Positions 471-14,606 of a stretch of DNA of 24,022 nucleotides are shown one piece after another. The translations under genes and the position numbers were made by a program. The notes below the pieces were generated by a model. That model searched no databases and was not told where the DNA came from. It worked only from the letters and a program-made list of their open reading frames with translations. The first letter of the stretch is position 1. Each line of letters opens with the position of its first letter. Origin of the DNA: a virus; IMG/VR virus record IMGVR_UViG_3300042945_000540, positions 1-24,022 of that record; one strand, written 5' to 3'.

Positions 471-1808
471 GTGAGTAATAAACTTTTTGTTTTTGATTTA
501 GATGGCGTATTAGTAGATAGCAAGGAAATTCACTACCTATCTCTAAATCAAGCACTTGAGCAGGTCGATCCTAAATATATCATTAACGAAGAAGATCAAA
601 GAACCACATTTGAGGGATTAACAACAAACCAAAAGTTAAGGATACTTACAGATACACGTGGCCTACCAGAGCACTACTACGATCAAATCTGGAAATCTAA
701 ACAAGAAAAATCTATATCATTTTTTAATATGTTAAAAAAAGATGAAGAACTTATTAAAATATTTACTGAGATAAAAAATAATAATATAAAGTTGGCAGTA
801 GCAAGTAACAGCATCAAGAAAACACTTGAAGCCTGTCTTACATCTCTTGGAGTTCTCAGCCTAGTTGATTTCTATATAAGCAATGAAGATGGTATAAGTC
901 CAAAGCCTAGCCCAGATATGTATAACGTGTGTATGAATAAACTTGGTGCAAGCAAAAATACAACAACAGTATTTGAAGATAGTTATACTGGTAGAACAGC
1001 AGCAATTCTGTCTGGTGCAAGACTGGTAACAATAAAAAATAGATCAGATCTAACAGTTACAAAAATACAAAACGAAATATCTGGTTTGAAACAAAAGCCA
1101 AACGTATTAATTCCAATGGCTGGTGAAGGATCTAGGTTTAGATTAGTTGGCTACGATATGCCAAAGCCACTCATTAAAGTAAATGACAAGAGCATGATTG
1201 AACTAGTCATAGATAACATAGGAATAGATGCACACTACATTTTTGTAGCAAGAAAAGAAGATGAAGAGAAGCATAATATATCTGGACATCTATCCTTAAT
1301 GTGCAAAGACTTCACCTTGATACTGCAAGAGGGAAGGCTTGATGGTGCTGCAAAATCTGCTCTTTTGGCAATTGACTATATAGATAATGATTCACCACTA
1401 ATTATTGCTAACTCTGATCAGTATGCTGTATGGAATAGCAAGAGAACAATAAAAGAGTTTATAAGAAGTGGCATTGATGGTGGAATTTTAACATTTGATG
1501 CTACAGATAGCAAGTGGTCTTTTGTAAAACAAAATAAGTTTGGATTTGTTGGAGCAGTTGCTGAAAAAAATGCTATTAGTAATGAGGCTACATGCGGTAT
1601 ATACTATTGGAAAACTGGTAAAGACTTTGTTAAATACACCAACAAGATGATCCTGTCTGAAAACAAAACAAATAATGAATTTTACATTTGTCCAGTATAC
1701 AATGAAGCAATCCAGGATGAAAAGATAATCAAATCTGAACGGGTCTATGAGATGTGGGGACTAGGAACACCAGAAGACCTAAGTATATTTTTGGAGAATC
1801 ACAATTGA
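471..1808 (+). CDS. HAD-family phosphatase fused to a nucleotidyltransferase
   Basis: This 445-residue protein has two enzymatic parts. Residues 1-200 are a HAD phosphatase of the phosphoglycolate phosphatase/beta-phosphoglucomutase type: FDLDGVLVDS with D9 and D11, VASNS near 110-114, K145 in KPSP, and FEDS with D170. Residues 210-440 are a GT-A nucleotidyltransferase like those making NDP-sugars: PMAGEGSRF at 215-223, PKPLI at 231-235, NSDQY at 314-318, and GTPEDL near the end. The start is GTG, chosen because the HAD motif begins right after it. A fusion of this kind would dephosphorylate one intermediate and activate another with a nucleotide, probably for a surface glycan or head-group. 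The substrate is unknown. The stop overlaps the next gene's TTG start. Confidence 0.85.
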   Translation: MSNKLFVFDLDGVLVDSKEIHYLSLNQALEQVDPKYIINEEDQRTTFEGLTTNQKLRILTDTRGLPEHYYDQIWKSKQEKSISFFNMLKKDEELIKIFTEIKNNNIKLAVASNSIKKTLEACLTSLGVLSLVDFYISNEDGISPKPSPDMYNVCMNKLGASKNTTTVFEDSYTGRTAAILSGARLVTIKNRSDLTVTKIQNEISGLKQKPNVLIPMAGEGSRFRLVGYDMPKPLIKVNDKSMIELVIDNIGIDAHYIFVARKEDEEKHNISGHLSLMCKDFTLILQEGRLDGAAKSALLAIDYIDNDSPLIIANSDQYAVWNSKRTIKEFIRSGIDGGILTFDATDSKWSFVKQNKFGFVGAVAEKNAISNEATCGIYYWKTGKDFVKYTNKMILSENKTNNEFYICPVYNEAIQDEKIIKSERVYEMWGLGTPEDLSIFLENHN

Positions 1809-2251
1809 TTTTAATAGCGCATAGAGGAAATATCTCTGGTCCAAACCCAGAAACAGAAAACACTATAAGTCAGTTGTTATATGCAATTAAAATGGGATTT
1901 GATGTTGAAGTAGATGTGTGGGTTGTTGAAGGTAAGATGTATTTTGGTCACGATGAGCCCAAGCATTTAGTCTCATCAGAAGATTTTTATAAGGTGTGTA
2001 ATCATGCTTGGTTTCATTGTAAAAACCTAGAATCATTAAACCATTTTATTAAATATTTTCCAACATACAATTACTTTTGGCATCAATTAGATGATTTTAC
2101 ATTAACAAGCAATAACAAGGTATGGACATATCCAGGAATGGAAGTTGGACCCAACTCAATTATAGTTGATTTAGAAGCAACTGATATAAGAAACTACAAC
2201 AATATTTATGGAATTTGTAGTGATAAAGTATTGTTACTTAAGACTTCTTAG
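1805..2251 (+). CDS. Short GDPD-like phosphodiesterase domain protein
   Basis: The protein starts at a TTG that overlaps the upstream stop (TTGA), with GGAG about 8 nt before it. A longer in-frame version from 1754 would lie inside the preceding gene and is less likely. The 148 residues open with LIAHRG, the glycerophosphodiester phosphodiesterase signature, and keep the expected catalytic set: H6-R7-G8, E35 and D37 in VEVDVW, and H49 in GHDE. Typical GDPD enzymes are around 230-300 residues, so this is a shortened barrel. Its tight coupling to the phosphatase/nucleotidyltransferase suggests the three activities process one phosphorylated, nucleotide-activated compound, possibly a glycerol-type head-group. 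That pathway is inference. Confidence 0.75.
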   Translation: MILIAHRGNISGPNPETENTISQLLYAIKMGFDVEVDVWVVEGKMYFGHDEPKHLVSSEDFYKVCNHAWFHCKNLESLNHFIKYFPTYNYFWHQLDDFTLTSNNKVWTYPGMEVGPNSIIVDLEATDIRNYNNIYGICSDKVLLLKTS

Positions 2252-2853: not shown

Positions 2854-3555
2854 ATGGACACTTCTACCGTATATTGGTGTATAGATACTGACCTGCCAAG
2901 TTTAGGTCCGTCTAAGACTATCCTGCCACTTTTTAATAGTGTTGTTAGCGAAAGAAATAAGAATACTGATCCTGGATCTTCATATTATAAATGTAAGTCT
3001 GCACAAGAAATGTTTAATAATACTTTCATACTTCCATCTACAGAAAATCTTCACATATTATTTAGTGGTGGCAAATTATTGAACACCAGAGATGCTAAAA
3101 AATTTAGACCAAGAATGCCAGTGTTTCAGGATGGTCCTGCAGTAGATTACGATTCCAGATGGTTATTTTTTTCTGAAGATGAAATCAATATTCAGTTAAC
3201 CCCACCATATTTTCATAAGACAAAAGCATCAGAATACGCTACAGTCTTAAGTGGTGAATTTAATATTAGTAAGTGGTTTAGGCCAATTATTCCAACATTT
3301 TCATTGTGGGATTCATCTAAAGAGTTAGTGATATCTGAACAAGATCCTTTAGCCTATGTTAACTTTATAACTGATAAGAAGATTATACTTCAAGAGTTTA
3401 CAGAAACAGAAAAAATAAAACACATAATGAATGAGTGCATAATGATGAAAGAAAAATTTCCCAACCTACCTCTTTCAGAAAGTTATAATAAGTTTTTGTT
3501 ATCTAATAAACATAAAGAACTTATAAAAGAAATTAAAAATAATCTAGTTTTATAG
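2854..3555 (+). CDS. Conserved-looking phage protein of unknown function
   Basis: This 233-residue protein starts at an ATG preceded by AAGGGGG. It has no signal peptide or membrane segment. Visible features are a Trp/Tyr-rich N-terminus (VYWCID), a central NIQLTPPYFHKT segment, then GEFNISKWFRPI and DPLAYVNFITDKKIILQEF, and a charged helical C-terminus. I recall similar segments in proteins of unknown function from aquatic phages but cannot name a family. It probably shares the tRNA-Arg promoter. Its end overlaps by 6 nt with the end of the gene on the other strand. Confidence 0.7.
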   Translation: MDTSTVYWCIDTDLPSLGPSKTILPLFNSVVSERNKNTDPGSSYYKCKSAQEMFNNTFILPSTENLHILFSGGKLLNTRDAKKFRPRMPVFQDGPAVDYDSRWLFFSEDEINIQLTPPYFHKTKASEYATVLSGEFNISKWFRPIIPTFSLWDSSKELVISEQDPLAYVNFITDKKIILQEFTETEKIKHIMNECIMMKEKFPNLPLSESYNKFLLSNKHKELIKEIKNNLVL

Positions 3556-4549: not shown

Positions 4550-5122
4550 TTAATGCCTCTCTCCTTTATTTGTAAACCAAATAGGTATAGAATACTTTAT
4601 TCCAGAGACCACTGGGTGGGCTATGTGTGAGTATTCCTCTGTAGATGGAAAAAATAACATAGATGGAGTCTTTGGCTTTACAGAAATTCCCAATTTTGTA
4701 AACTCTAGATCTCCACCCTCATATTCTTCTGGGTTCATATATATAACACAGGAAACTATCCTAGGTATTTCACTGTTTGGATTATAATCTGAATGCTCTT
4801 TAAAGAATGATCCAGGATAATACTTTAGTAGTGTAATCTTTTCGGATCTAACTAAAGATCTAAATTCTGTATTAAGTAGATAATGATTAAGTTTTTCTAT
4901 AATCTGAGAATTAATACTATAAAAAAGTTTAGAGTCTTTTTCTTTTATTTCTATTTGTTGGCTAGACCTGATTAGTGGATCTACCATTTGACTATCTCCA
5001 ATTATTGAGTTGTGCCAATTTAGATTATGATTTTCAAAATCTTTAATTAATTCATTAGATTTTTCTTTGCTAATTATTGACTCATAAAGTAAAACATTTT
5101 TTGCTAATTTTAAATAATTCAT
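4550..5122 (-). CDS. 2OG-Fe(II) oxygenase, prolyl-4-hydroxylase-like
   Basis: This protein of 190 residues is predicted to use 2-oxoglutarate, O2 and Fe(II) for a hydroxylation. The metal ligands are H110 and D112 in FKEHSDYN and H166 in SHIAHPVVSG, with K176 in GIKYSIP where the family has Arg or Lys to bind 2-oxoglutarate. EEYEGGDLEF at 132-141 is the usual beta-turn before the distal histidine. The length fits the P4H/PiuC-like group. The substrate is unknown; phage members are common and often linked to protein or nucleotide modification. AGAGGAAG lies upstream of the ATG. Confidence 0.85.
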   Translation of the reverse strand: MNYLKLAKNVLLYESIISKEKSNELIKDFENHNLNWHNSIIGDSQMVDPLIRSSQQIEIKEKDSKLFYSINSQIIEKLNHYLLNTEFRSLVRSEKITLLKYYPGSFFKEHSDYNPNSEIPRIVSCVIYMNPEEYEGGDLEFTKLGISVKPKTPSMLFFPSTEEYSHIAHPVVSGIKYSIPIWFTNKGERH

Positions 5123-5123
5123 A

Positions 5124-5531
5124 CTAATCTTCCTCTTGCGGAAGAAGTTTTTTTAATTCTTCATAAGATTCAGCAATTTTCTTCATAGAGTAATAGTTTG
5201 GTGCCATAGACATAAGATCCCCATACTCTTTAAAGTAATTAATCTCTGGCTCAATATCAGAAACAAACTTACTTATGCCCAACTGAACACTCTCTATATA
5301 ATCAAATGCCCAATCTCTAGACTGATTCAAAAAACTTACAAAGTCATCTGTTTTTTCAATCTCTTCTTTGTCTTTCATTGTGCTAATTTTATTTAAAAGA
5401 AGTTCGTTGTCAGCATCGGACTGAGCAAGTCTTATTGCTGTGTCTTTTTGCTTAATCCTCATTTTAACATTATCTACAATAATTAAAAAGAAAAAACACA
5501 TAAACAGCATAAATGATATAAAATCAAACAT
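5124..5531 (-). CDS. Membrane-anchored coiled-coil protein, unknown function
   Basis: The 135-residue protein has one N-terminal membrane segment (FISFMLFMCFFFLIIV) with no cleavage site. A charged helical region follows, likely a coiled coil (about 23-65), then RDWAFDYIESVQ and EPEINYFKEYGDL, and an acidic end LLPQEED. The ATG overlaps the previous stop by 8 nt and has GGAGG upstream. A membrane-tethered cytoplasmic helical protein is the best description. No family is named. Confidence 0.65.
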   Translation of the reverse strand: MFDFISFMLFMCFFFLIIVDNVKMRIKQKDTAIRLAQSDADNELLLNKISTMKDKEEIEKTDDFVSFLNQSRDWAFDYIESVQLGISKFVSDIEPEINYFKEYGDLMSMAPNYYSMKKIAESYEELKKLLPQEED

Positions 5532-5760
5532 CTTTTCCTCCTTCTCTTACTAGCATAACTATTGCCCCATTGTCCTCTAAGGCTTTTTTTACCCGAATCA
5601 TATACTCAACGGATTGAATTTTTTCATCATGGGATAGATGTAAAAAATCCTTCTCAGATGCACGGACAGTAATAAAATGATCGTTATCAACTATCGTCAG
5701 TTTAAAGTTTTTGGGTGGACGAATTGAATGAAATGCCATACGCATTTGTTCTGTATACAT
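5524..5760 (-). CDS. Small unknown protein, 78 residues
   Basis: I choose the ATG at 5760, which overlaps the upstream TGA as TGATG. A TTG one codon earlier is possible. The sequence suggests an alpha/beta fold: MRMAFHSIRPPKNFKLTIVDNDHFITVRAS split by charged loops, then a helix (DEKIQSVEYMIRVKKALEDN) and a strand, AIVMLVREGG. No catalytic motif or cysteine cluster is seen. It is flanked by two membrane proteins in one overlapping transcript. Confidence 0.6.
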   Translation of the reverse strand: MYTEQMRMAFHSIRPPKNFKLTIVDNDHFITVRASEKDFLHLSHDEKIQSVEYMIRVKKALEDNGAIVMLVREGGKDV

Positions 5761-8707: not shown

Positions 8708-8713
8708 ATTATA
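8708..8713 (-). promoter_or_regulatory. -10 box for a nearly leaderless start at 8698
   Basis: A perfect TATAAT on the - strand ends 9 nt before the ATG at 8698, so the expected 5' end is about 3 nt from the start codon. The -35 region has only a partial match (GCAACA at an 18-nt spacing). The box overlaps the stop region of the glycosyltransferase gene. Confidence 0.5.
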
Positions 8714-9710
8714 GCACCCTATCTTTTAGCCTGTTGCGTAACTGTATTTCAGATACGCCGTGAAAATCAAAGAAATCTTGTATGGATTTTTTTAAACCTC
8801 TCAAGTCCATGTAATAATTATACCCCTTAAGTATTAAAAGCGCAAGTTGCTTTTTTGAATTTGGTAAATCATCTTCTGTTGCACCTATATTAATTAAATG
8901 GTTTGACCATCTTGTATTTACCTTTGGATACTCGATCCCTAGATATTCTCCAATTACACCTGAATCAACATCTGATAATTCAAAGTTCTTATATTTTAAT
9001 GGTGAATTTAAAAATAAACTCCTGTCAAATATTGACTTTTTATCTTTAGCCTCTGTAACCATATAAGTTTTTGGTATTTCATAAATAGAAAATCCATTAC
9101 AGAATAGTAACAAAGATAAAAGTATATCTTCTTCTCCCCACAGGTATCCGATTGGGTATTTTAATTTCATTATTTCTTTACCAGCAAAAATAAAATGAGG
9201 CATTATCCAGTTAGACAAAAATGGATCGTAGATCTCTCTATCTTTTGAATCTATGAAGCATTTTGATGAGTGCTCAATAGGTATATGGCTTCCTGGATGC
9301 TCTGTTTCTGTAACGATAGTTTTATAAAATATATCTAAAAATCGATCCCTTAGTGGCTGACTGATTACTGCCATACTGCTTTCTGGTAATTGAGAGTGCC
9401 AAGATATTAAATCAGAGTCCCACCCTTTCTTAAACCCAGTATGGCAATCAATACTCAAAACGTAGTCTTCATCGTTATATAGTCCCTGAATAAAACTTCT
9501 GGTCCTGCCAAGTCCGTATACTATGTTACTTGGAAGTGTAATTACCCTTATTTCATTTTTTATATCTGATAGATCTATTGATGATAAACCCTGTAGAGAG
9601 ATTCCAAAAGACAGTCCGATGGGGTTATCACTTTTATCAATGCAATCTAGTATTGTATCTTTAATTCTATCATCAGACAGCGATGGAATCATTACAAAAA
9701 TTGTTGACAC
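8709..9710 (-). CDS. GT-A glycosyltransferase, Skp1 GlcNAc-transferase-like
   Basis: This 333-residue enzyme resembles the UDP-GlcNAc:polypeptide GlcNAc-transferase family (Pfam GlcNAc). The evidence is the opening FVMIPSLSDDR, then YGLGRTRSFIQGLYNDEDYVLSIDCHTGFKKGWD, in which D88-C-H90 stands in place of the classical DxD metal site, as DSH does in Skp1 GlcNAcT. YLWGEEDILL further on supplies the likely catalytic acidic residues. There is no membrane segment, so it should act in the cytoplasm on a phage or host acceptor. The start is GTG overlapping the previous stop (TAGTG). Confidence 0.8.
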   Translation of the reverse strand: MSTIFVMIPSLSDDRIKDTILDCIDKSDNPIGLSFGISLQGLSSIDLSDIKNEIRVITLPSNIVYGLGRTRSFIQGLYNDEDYVLSIDCHTGFKKGWDSDLISWHSQLPESSMAVISQPLRDRFLDIFYKTIVTETEHPGSHIPIEHSSKCFIDSKDREIYDPFLSNWIMPHFIFAGKEIMKLKYPIGYLWGEEDILLSLLLFCNGFSIYEIPKTYMVTEAKDKKSIFDRSLFLNSPLKYKNFELSDVDSGVIGEYLGIEYPKVNTRWSNHLINIGATEDDLPNSKKQLALLILKGYNYYMDLRGLKKSIQDFFDFHGVSEIQLRNRLKDRVL

Positions 9711-12303: not shown

Positions 12304-13185
12304 TTAATTTTGCTTATCATAGCCCCTCCTTAAAAACTCTTTTAAAAAATCTTTATAGACTAACTCGTTCCAACCAGATCCTGGATGAACTCCATCCTGT
12401 GCTTTAGACCAGTATGGTAAATTGTTTACATTTTCTTTAGTTAAAAAGTCACTATCGGTTCCATCAAAACTAAACATATTAGAGCCTGTAAAATAATTAT
12501 TAAATTTAATTTTTTCAAACACTTCATTTGCTGTATTATTCCAACTTGACCATATTAGTTTTATGTTATTTAGTCTACAAATATCTTCTAATATTCTAAT
12601 ATTTTCTATTGAATTAAATGCACCATACTGCTCTTTATAGTTTAAAGTATACACCCTTTGAGTAATAAACTTTTTTGGTCCAGCAATCCATTGTGGGTGA
12701 ACTAAACAACTTATAATCTTGTTGGATATTGGATCATACTGTAAATCTCTTGCAAAGTTAGGTAACAATACAAATATAAATTCTGGCGCACCATATTTTC
12801 TAATAAAAGTTAATATGTTTTTTACTATAAGCCTTGTAGATGCCCCAGTAGAGGAAACATTGTAAAAATTATTTACACCTATTTCTTTTGAAAGTCTTGA
12901 ATACCAGGTAACATCTTCTGGCAAACCTTCTCCCAATGTTATAGAGCATCCAGCAAAAAGAATATTTTTTAATTTAGGGTCGAACTCATTAAAATGCCTA
13001 GATCTAAACCCATCAGAGTTTATCTGATAAGTAATTTCAGGACCATCTACAATGCCATGGCAACCAATATTGTTTGTATATAAGTAGTTGTCTTCTCTCC
13101 TATAGATACTTGCATACTGGCTTTGTTCTCTCGTAAGATCAGTTCCAACTAAAAAATCATCTATAAACTCATTTAAAAAATTCAT
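12304..13185 (-). CDS. SGNH/GDSL-type hydrolase
   Basis: The 293-residue protein shows the SGNH blocks: GCSIT with nucleophile S81, a glycine in the STGAST loop (G114), N143 in LLPNFARD, and D264-x-x-H267 in QDGVHPG near the C-terminus. These enzymes remove or transfer acyl groups from glycans or lipids. There is no signal peptide. The ATG overlaps the carbamoyltransferase stop (ATGA), so the two proteins are made together and may modify the same molecule (inference). Confidence 0.85.
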   Translation of the reverse strand: MNFLNEFIDDFLVGTDLTREQSQYASIYRREDNYLYTNNIGCHGIVDGPEITYQINSDGFRSRHFNEFDPKLKNILFAGCSITLGEGLPEDVTWYSRLSKEIGVNNFYNVSSTGASTRLIVKNILTFIRKYGAPEFIFVLLPNFARDLQYDPISNKIISCLVHPQWIAGPKKFITQRVYTLNYKEQYGAFNSIENIRILEDICRLNNIKLIWSSWNNTANEVFEKIKFNNYFTGSNMFSFDGTDSDFLTKENVNNLPYWSKAQDGVHPGSGWNELVYKDFLKEFLRRGYDKQN

Positions 13186-14606
13186 CGTATTATCTTATTT
13201 CCGTATTGACTTTCCCATTCAGCAATATCAATTTCATCATTTAGTAGTGGCTGCCCTTTAATATTTAAACTTGTATTAAGTAATATTGGAACACCAGTTT
13301 GCAAAAAGAATTTGTTTAAAACTCTATAAAGTCCCTGATGTTGCTCTCTATTTACTGTCTGAACCCTGGAAGTCCCATCTTGATGAACTACAGCAGGTAT
13401 CTTTTCTGGCTTTAGGCACTTAACTGTATATTGCATATACGGGCTGGAGTAGTCCATATCAAACCATTTTGATGCATGATCTTCCATAACCACTGGAGCA
13501 AATGGTCTAAATAGTTCTCTTTGTTTAATTAAGTTTACTTTGTCTTTAATCAATGGGTCTCTTGGGTCTGCAAGTATACTTCTATTCCCTAGCGCTCTTG
13601 GACCATACTCTGCTCTACCTGTTGCTACTGCCACCACTCCATTTTTCAATATACCGTCCACAATTTCTTGAATTGGATACTTGCCACCAAGATCATAACC
13701 AAGATAGGGAGTCTTCCAATCAAGATGTTTTCCGTATAATGCTGCTGCTGCGCCAAGTGAACTGCCTGCATCTCCTGGGTTTGGCATAATCCATATCATA
13801 TCAAAAATGTTCCAAAGAAGTGTATTTGCAGAAGAGTTTAGAGCACAACCACCCATGAATACTAAATTATTTTTACCAGTAAGTCTCTTTGCCATACGCA
13901 TAAACTCATTTAATCTTTGTTCATAGACTACTTGAACTGCTGCTGCAATGTCAAACTTGTCTTGCTCGGTTATTGTGAAGCCCCAGTCATTGATTCCTTT
14001 ATGAAAATTATAACTTTGCTTTGAATATGAAGGGAAGTATTCATCAACCTCTTTGTAGTATCTTGTCCAGTCCCCATAAGCAGCCATTCCCATCATAATA
14101 TATTCTTCTTGGTTTGGCATAAGGCCAATCAATTTAGTGAATGCTGAATAAAACAATCCAAAACTAACAGGGTAATTTTGCTTATACTTTAACTTAATTT
14201 TATTTCCTTCACCTACCCAGATAGTGGAGGTGTTGTATTCTCCAATAGCATCTAGAACCACTATCGCAGCATCATTAAAATCGCTTGTGTAATATCCTGC
14301 TGCTGCATGAGAATAATGATGTGTAAAAGATTTTCTTGGAATCCCATCTATATCAAACCTTGGTTTCCAATCCCCAGATCCACCCTTTAAAGCCAGCCTA
14401 GAGGCTTTTAGAAGGGGCTTTTCGTAGTAGGCAATGTGATCTGGTCTACCATACTGCAAAGCATCTTTTATTAAACTATCATTGACATACCAGTCATTTT
14501 TTTGTTTGCTATATCTTTCTGCATGCCCTGCAAAAAGTATCTCGCCATCCTTAATTAAAGAAACGGATGCGTCATGAGATGTCTCATTTATGCCAAGTAT
14601 AATCAC
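13182..14606 (-). CDS. Carbamoyltransferase, NodU/TobZ family
   Basis: The 474-residue enzyme is predicted to transfer a carbamoyl group from carbamoyl phosphate through an adenylate. The N-terminal Kae1-like part shows GINETSHDASVSL (H11, D12), HHYSHAAAGYY with H96, H97 and H100, and VLDAIGEY with D119. The C-terminal part shows GRAEYGPRALGNRSILADP. The family usually has about 550-600 residues, so this is compact, but no motif seems missing. The start is GTG, overlapping the stop of a 27-residue ORF as TAGTG. The acceptor is unknown: a sugar, a DNA base or a glycan are all possible. Confidence 0.92.
   Translation of the reverse strand: MIILGINETSHDASVSLIKDGEILFAGHAERYSKQKNDWYVNDSLIKDALQYGRPDHIAYYEKPLLKASRLALKGGSGDWKPRFDIDGIPRKSFTHHYSHAAAGYYTSDFNDAAIVVLDAIGEYNTSTIWVGEGNKIKLKYKQNYPVSFGLFYSAFTKLIGLMPNQEEYIMMGMAAYGDWTRYYKEVDEYFPSYSKQSYNFHKGINDWGFTITEQDKFDIAAAVQVVYEQRLNEFMRMAKRLTGKNNLVFMGGCALNSSANTLLWNIFDMIWIMPNPGDAGSSLGAAAALYGKHLDWKTPYLGYDLGGKYPIQEIVDGILKNGVVAVATGRAEYGPRALGNRSILADPRDPLIKDKVNLIKQRELFRPFAPVVMEDHASKWFDMDYSSPYMQYTVKCLKPEKIPAVVHQDGTSRVQTVNREQHQGLYRVLNKFFLQTGVPILLNTSLNIKGQPLLNDEIDIAEWESQYGNKIIR

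Follow-up and report, generated by a model that had tools for sequence, protein, structure and literature searches.

What might a phage make with a phosphatase, a nucleotidyltransferase (NTase) and a miniature GDPD encoded in two overlapping genes? The question was raised by a stretch of virus DNA of 24,022 bases (IMG/VR record IMGVR_UViG_3300042945_000540, positions 1 to 24,022), called here the window. The window was taken to be a fragment of a freshwater actinobacterial phage because of its WhiB gene (PF02467), its terminase and the close relatives sharing its gene order. The cassette lies on the plus strand, flanked by a tRNA-Met gene (357-431) and an unrelated minus-strand gene, and has the following features.

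471-1808, plus strand: HAD phosphatase-NTase fusion, 445 aa, GTG start (Pfam, PHROG, AlphaFold2, conserved residues)
477-1070, plus strand: HAD domain of the fusion, class IA variant 3, residues ~3-200 (TIGR02009 and beta-PGM-like models, PDB relatives)
1101-1805, plus strand: nucleotidyltransferase domain of the fusion, residues ~211-445 (PF00483, PDB 4evw)
1793-1796, plus strand: GGAG, likely ribosome-binding site of the mini-GDPD, 8 bases 5' of its TTG (sequence)
1805-2251, plus strand: mini-GDPD, 148 aa, TTG start (PHROG 34507, PDB profile match, AlphaFold2, Foldseek)

The initial annotation had proposed three activities encoded with a start/stop overlap, and this layout was confirmed: two translationally coupled genes with three domains occupy 471-2251, and the TGA stop of the fusion shares four bases with the TTG start of the mini-GDPD (TTGA, 1805-1808). 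For the second gene, 1805-2251 is the preferred reading; the TTG/TGA overlap, the GGAG and the family start MxLIAHRG agree on this start. A mechanical open reading frame starting at 1754, a longer frame of the same gene, was rejected because its added residues are the end of the NTase read out of frame and relatives start at MxLIAHRG. Fusion copies of 90% identity are present in other phage contigs. Against one such relative (L003), dN/dS was 0.057/0.955 (~0.06) for the fusion and 0.083/0.493 (~0.17) for the mini-GDPD; judged by these ratios, both genes are under purifying selection and are not chance open reading frames. Another plus-strand gene (2854-3555), 3' of the cassette and of a tRNA-Arg, encodes a 233-aa protein of phrog_17480, which is of unknown function, and it clustered only with copies in close actinophage relatives.

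The HAD_2 family of Pfam matched residues 7-186 of the fusion at 94.8 bits, over the curated cut-off; the fusion also matched PHROG 8468 and PHROG 3980, and its AlphaFold2 model had a pLDDT of 94.4. D9, D11, K145, E169 and D170 were invariant in the alignment of 64 fusions, while position 112 was Ser or Thr and is S112 in the window protein, and all of the class IA motifs (DxD, Ser/Thr, Lys and ED) are therefore present. D9 is predicted to be the nucleophile and D11 the acid/base. The same DxD, Ser, Lys and ED motifs with a cap domain are found in the HAD IA variant 3 sugar phosphatases, in beta-phosphoglucomutase (beta-PGM) and in the phosphatase domain of MtlD (7ocn), and the PDB relatives were 3kbb, 7ocn and beta-PGM. 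The domain could accordingly be imagined as a beta-PGM-type phosphomutase that converts a hexose 6-phosphate to the 1-phosphate, so that the fusion would need only two steps to lead from central metabolism to an NDP-sugar. The best sub-family models are indeed beta-PGM-like, with TIGR02009 scoring 82.7 bits under its cut-off of 153, and H21 and K77, invariant in the fusions, lie at or near what we take to be H20 and K76 of beta-PGM. However, Lys45 and Arg49, which hold the second phosphate in beta-PGM, align with E48 and T52 of the window protein, positions conserved in the fusions as E/D48 and T52, and other HAD types take the place of this domain in variant loci, as would be expected of a phosphatase. 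Mutase activity is less likely because the second-phosphate residues are not kept, and we regard this reading as distinctly unlikely. The window HAD differs from these relatives in being the N-terminal partner of an NTase, and K45 and R49 of beta-PGM are not kept in it.

The NTP_transferase family (PF00483) matched residues 216-392 of the fusion at 36.8 bits (cut-off 21.2). The motifs of the domain are a GEGSRF loop, K232 and NSDQ with D316, and G218, G220, R222, K232 and D316 were invariant across the 64 fusions. The nearest solved structure was 4evw of Vibrio cholerae (profile E 2.7e-28, TMt 0.82), whose function is not established, and the next fold matches were ST0452, RmlA and GlmU. PF00483, the GxGxRF loop, the PKP lysine and the catalytic Asp (NSD) are common to the window domain, 4evw and the RmlA/GlmU-type enzymes, although the window NTase shares only ~24% identity with 4evw and is fused to a HAD domain. 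On its motifs and fold, the domain is classed as an RmlA/GlmU-type sugar-phosphate nucleotidyltransferase.

This class bears on the nature of the product, for which the initial annotation had suggested CDP-glycerol or CDP-ethanolamine. In such a scheme the NTase would make a CDP-polyol or CDP-amino-alcohol (glycerol, ribitol or ethanolamine) whose phospho-head-group is transferred, and the phosphodiester so formed would be trimmed or recycled by the GDPD. A product of the glycerophosphodiester or polyol-phosphate kind would suit a GDPD-type enzyme, the near relatives of the HAD domain include the phosphatase half of mannitol-1-phosphate dehydrogenase/phosphatase (7ocn), and some RmlA-fold enzymes (IspD/TarI, LicC) produce CDP-polyols or CDP-choline. 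Nevertheless, PF01467, the HIGH-motif cytidylyltransferase family of TagD and ECT, had no Pfam match in the window fusion protein, and the nearest folds are sugar-1-phosphate NTases. The neighbour clusters that were examined held sugar epimerases, isomerases and glycosyltransferases but neither a polyol dehydrogenase nor a phosphotransferase. The guess of CDP-glycerol or CDP-ethanolamine is unsupported because the NTase is RmlA/GlmU-like and not a HIGH-motif cytidylyltransferase; the sugar-phosphate enzymes of variant loci (RpiB, PfkB, cupin and RuBisCO-like proteins), described below, also speak against it, and we consider a CDP-linked product unlikely.

The claim that the GDPD keeps its catalytic residues in 148 residues held, with one qualification. 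Among 129 mini-GDPDs, H6, R7, E18, N19, E35, D37, H49, H71, H93, D96, T101, W107 and C138 were invariant, K73 was kept in 128 and D50 in 124, so that the catalytic His-Arg, Glu-Asn, Glu-x-Asp and His-Asp are intact in 124 to 129 of them. The qualification concerns the metal site. The Glu of Glu-x-Lys is the third metal-binding residue of canonical GDPDs; it is absent from the mini-GDPD, and the aligned position is the invariant His71, so an invariant His probably stands in its place. The distance from H49 to H71 is 22 residues, while the canonical spacing at this insertion is ~60 residues, which indicates that the insertion following the HD strand and preceding the Glu-x-Lys strand is missing.

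No Pfam family matched the mini-GDPD at E 0.01, PF03009 included, and no NCBIfam model matched at E 0.1; PHROG 34507, which it matches, is annotated as unknown function. Its AlphaFold2 model had a pLDDT of 95.8. When the family profile was compared with the PDB, the Pyrococcus GDPD 7e0v was matched over the first 50 residues (E 2.1e-4), and the top Foldseek matches were mostly GDPDs, although these were weak (probability at most 0.99, E above 0.001, TMq 0.5-0.6). A single-sequence PDB search gave CsrA matches, which were set aside as chance; the profile was needed to reach GDPD. The protein shares with the GDPDs 7e0v, 2pz0, 3qvq and 3no3 the HR...EN...ExD...HD motif, the Foldseek matches suggest a barrel-type fold like theirs, and its WxYPG and GICSD strands resemble the end of the canonical barrel, but it has 148 residues where they have ~240-250. 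It is GDPD-type by motif and outside the Pfam family by test. With its GDPD-like site intact in only 148 residues, the putative barrel is of interest as a minimal form of that fold. Structural matches were also seen in giant viruses (BFVD), namely in Homavirus (A0A3G5A5B5) and Bodo saltans virus (A0A2H4UUJ1): a close match of 34% identity lies inside a protein bearing the name FkbM methyltransferase, while the protein with the weaker match is named glycosyltransferase/phospholipase.

The two genes are found together well beyond the window. When the mini-GDPD alone was used to fetch 80 loci, 75 of them had an NTase within ~6 kb (58 as the HAD-NTase fusion and 17 as another NTase), and when the fusion was used, 66 of 80 had the mini-GDPD; as these are the 80 best-scoring loci of each scan and come from related viruses, the neighbourhood counts are not independent events. 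The mini-GDPD was not found in the other 14 fusion loci, to which contig ends contribute. The genes often have the four-base overlap or are separated by one or two genes, and in SAR11 and alphaproteobacterial genomes the order is reversed and the adjacency kept. Domain swaps retain NTase, phosphatase and GDPD together. Two loci (L013, L015) have the order NTase-HAD with a C-terminal HAD of a different type, and a third (L007) has NTase-NTase plus a small stand-alone HAD. In L008, an NTase-RpiB fusion lies beside a HAD and a PfkB-like kinase. A GT61 glycosyltransferase is fused to the mini-GDPD in L093, and a single gene of ~830 aa joins HAD, NTase and GT61 in L095 (4378-6879), so that activation and transfer may share one polypeptide there. 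L096 and L097 share this long architecture (L097 from 4143, also ~830 aa), and no mini-GDPD was seen in the L095 and L097 loci.

This linkage bears on the idea that the mini-GDPD is a general glycerophosphodiesterase supplying glycerol 3-phosphate or phosphate from lipid turnover, with its adjacency to the NTase being incidental. The GDPD-like active-site motif and fold would fit such a role, but an NTase is linked in those 75 of the 80 best-scoring loci, a GT61 fusion exists, and the canonical substrate-side insertion is missing; we consider it the least probable of the readings.

The surroundings agreed with the glycan-decoration setting that had been proposed for the cassette. A GT2-like glycosyltransferase was a neighbour in 68 loci and a DUF7796 family protein, a putative glycan enzyme with no solved relative in the structure-database search, in 81 loci. 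Epimerases, GT11, GT6, GT61 and FkbM methyltransferases were also frequent across viruses, and GT61 is fused to either partner. A cupin-like protein of ~110 aa with a conserved HYH..E motif and no Pfam match over cut-off occurred in 29 loci (e.g. L013:5672-6004 and L010:4929-5249), mainly with NTase variants that have no N-terminal HAD. RuBisCO-like proteins were found in NTase/mini-GDPD loci of both IMG/VR viral contigs and marine genome contigs, often with the small cupin (L015:4203-5390; also L054, L058, L076, L180, L181 and L184); the one of L015 was tested and matched PF00016 (2.6e-33), with 4nas as its best solved relative (E 3e-39).

Grouping of the sugar-activation gene with glycosyltransferases was thus found in relatives, and the close relative L003 has the same GT2-like gene (710-1327) as well as a GT61 (4703-5683). 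Within the window no glycosyltransferase directly adjoins the cassette, the nearest being 6.5 kb away on the other strand (8709-9710, minus), and there is no sugar kinase or isomerase. That gene encodes a GlcNAc-family glycosyltransferase (PF11397), a possible user of the donor made by the NTase. Elsewhere on the minus strand (12304-13185 and 13182-14606), a NolO/NodU-type carbamoyltransferase gene (PF16861, PF02543) overlaps a second gene by four bases. The partner has GCSIT and DGVHPG motifs, is SGNH hydrolase-like and had no Pfam match, and the two are possibly another glycan-modifying pair.

A cassette of this type had been called unusual in a phage, and this view has to be given up. The IMG/VR profile scans gave at least 590 mini-GDPD relatives and at least 556 fusion relatives, each among the 600 stretches listed. 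Among annotated phages, most of the fusion is present in 11 records and the mini-GDPD in 16. These 16 are without exception Synechococcus phages, wherever the full fusion occurs the mini-GDPD is there too, and in phage B23 the two genes have a four-base overlap as in the window. A single-pattern scan of 84,980 bacterial and archaeal genomes gave 28 relatives, mostly in SAR11 and other marine groups, and in one SAR11 family a full-length or nearly full-length copy was present in 4 of 147 genomes. The scan counts suggest that viruses commonly carry the family and that in cells it is an accessory gene, the viral and cellular scans having used different pattern sets so that their counts are not strictly comparable. 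One contig filed as a Chitinophagaceae MAG (L172, CANGYR010000020.1) has the actinophage gene order and an 87%-identical mini-GDPD, and it looks like a mis-binned phage contig.

It had also been suggested that the cassette defends against host nucleases. This was not supported, the results being neither for nor against it; the PADLOC anti-phage and counter-defence models gave only a spurious Cas11a match (17.2 bits). In a related reading, the product would be a sugar or other group placed on the phage DNA to shield it from host nucleases, the role proposed for the glycosyltransferases carried by acI phages (PMC10202952). Against this, none of the window's genes was recognised as modifying bases, by way of hydroxymethyl-pyrimidine or in a similar manner. 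The setting that recurs is a glycan cluster holding glycosyltransferases of several families, and SAR11, SAR116 and Prochlorococcus genome contigs have the pair as well. We hold DNA modification to be very unlikely.

Taken together, the data suggest that the pair is probably the core of a widespread viral module that supplies glycan decoration with an activated sugar or a polyol resembling one, with the mini-GDPD dedicated to the pathway. A common and undescribed viral surface-glycan module is the most likely reading because the pair recurs across at least hundreds of viral sequences and usually has genes for sugar transfer around it, and a sugar is favoured over glycerol or ethanolamine owing to the RmlA/GlmU-like fold and to the isomerases and kinase of the variant loci. 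In this pathway, the HAD domain would take one phosphate off a phosphorylated, probably bisphosphorylated, sugar precursor, and the fused NTase would join the phosphate that is left to an NTP, yielding an NDP-sugar. Transfer of the sugar to a cell-surface or virion glycan would then fall to a glycosyltransferase (GT2-like, GT61 or other) whose gene lies near the pair or at another place in the phage. The mini-GDPD, as a cytosolic metal-dependent GDPD-like enzyme, may work on an intermediate of this compound that contains a phosphodiester or pyrophosphate linkage. We infer the HAD, NTase and glycosyltransferase steps from family knowledge and context and the mini-GDPD step from its linkage; the order of steps, the sugar-type substrate and the in vivo target are likewise proposed.

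A phosphodiesterase-type enzyme in NDP-sugar synthesis is unaccounted for, and it counts against this explanation, as do the lack in the window of an adjoining glycosyltransferase and of a sugar kinase or isomerase, and the 14 fusion loci in which no mini-GDPD was found. We tentatively raise the possibility, with low confidence, that the mini-GDPD represents a new, largely viral family that forms, cyclises or transfers a sugar phosphodiester or cleaves an NDP-sugar, rather than hydrolysing glycerophosphodiesters, and that this is a regular step in a nucleotide-sugar pathway not yet described. If true, the fixed set of phosphatase, NTase and mini-GDPD would define a glycan-donor pathway of a new kind, found in phages and in some marine bacteria. 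In either case, an enzyme set present in at least hundreds of viral contigs, including those of cultured cyanophages, has had no named function, and its mini-GDPD has no Pfam or NCBIfam model. As a small, directly testable unit of two genes, the cassette gives a way to ask what sugar is activated by aquatic phages and for what reason; up to now the answer has been no more than the label 'LPS/capsule genes'.

No description of this domain combination was found in the open-licence literature. Cyanophages are reported to carry LPS/capsule-modification clusters with HAD phosphatases, PfkB kinases, NTases, epimerases and many glycosyltransferases, and the sections of that account considered here name HIGH-superfamily NTases and mention neither the HAD-NTase fusion nor the mini-GDPD (PMC7824862). 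The pair sits in such clusters in S-CAM9 and B23, and the mini-GDPD is found in them with an unfused NTase in S-SM2 and Bellamy. What is new here is the set of phosphatase, NTase and mini-GDPD that recurs across loci, together with the domain swaps within it and the GDPD-like family of minimal size. In contrast to the cyanophage clusters, the pair in the actinophage of the window stands almost alone.
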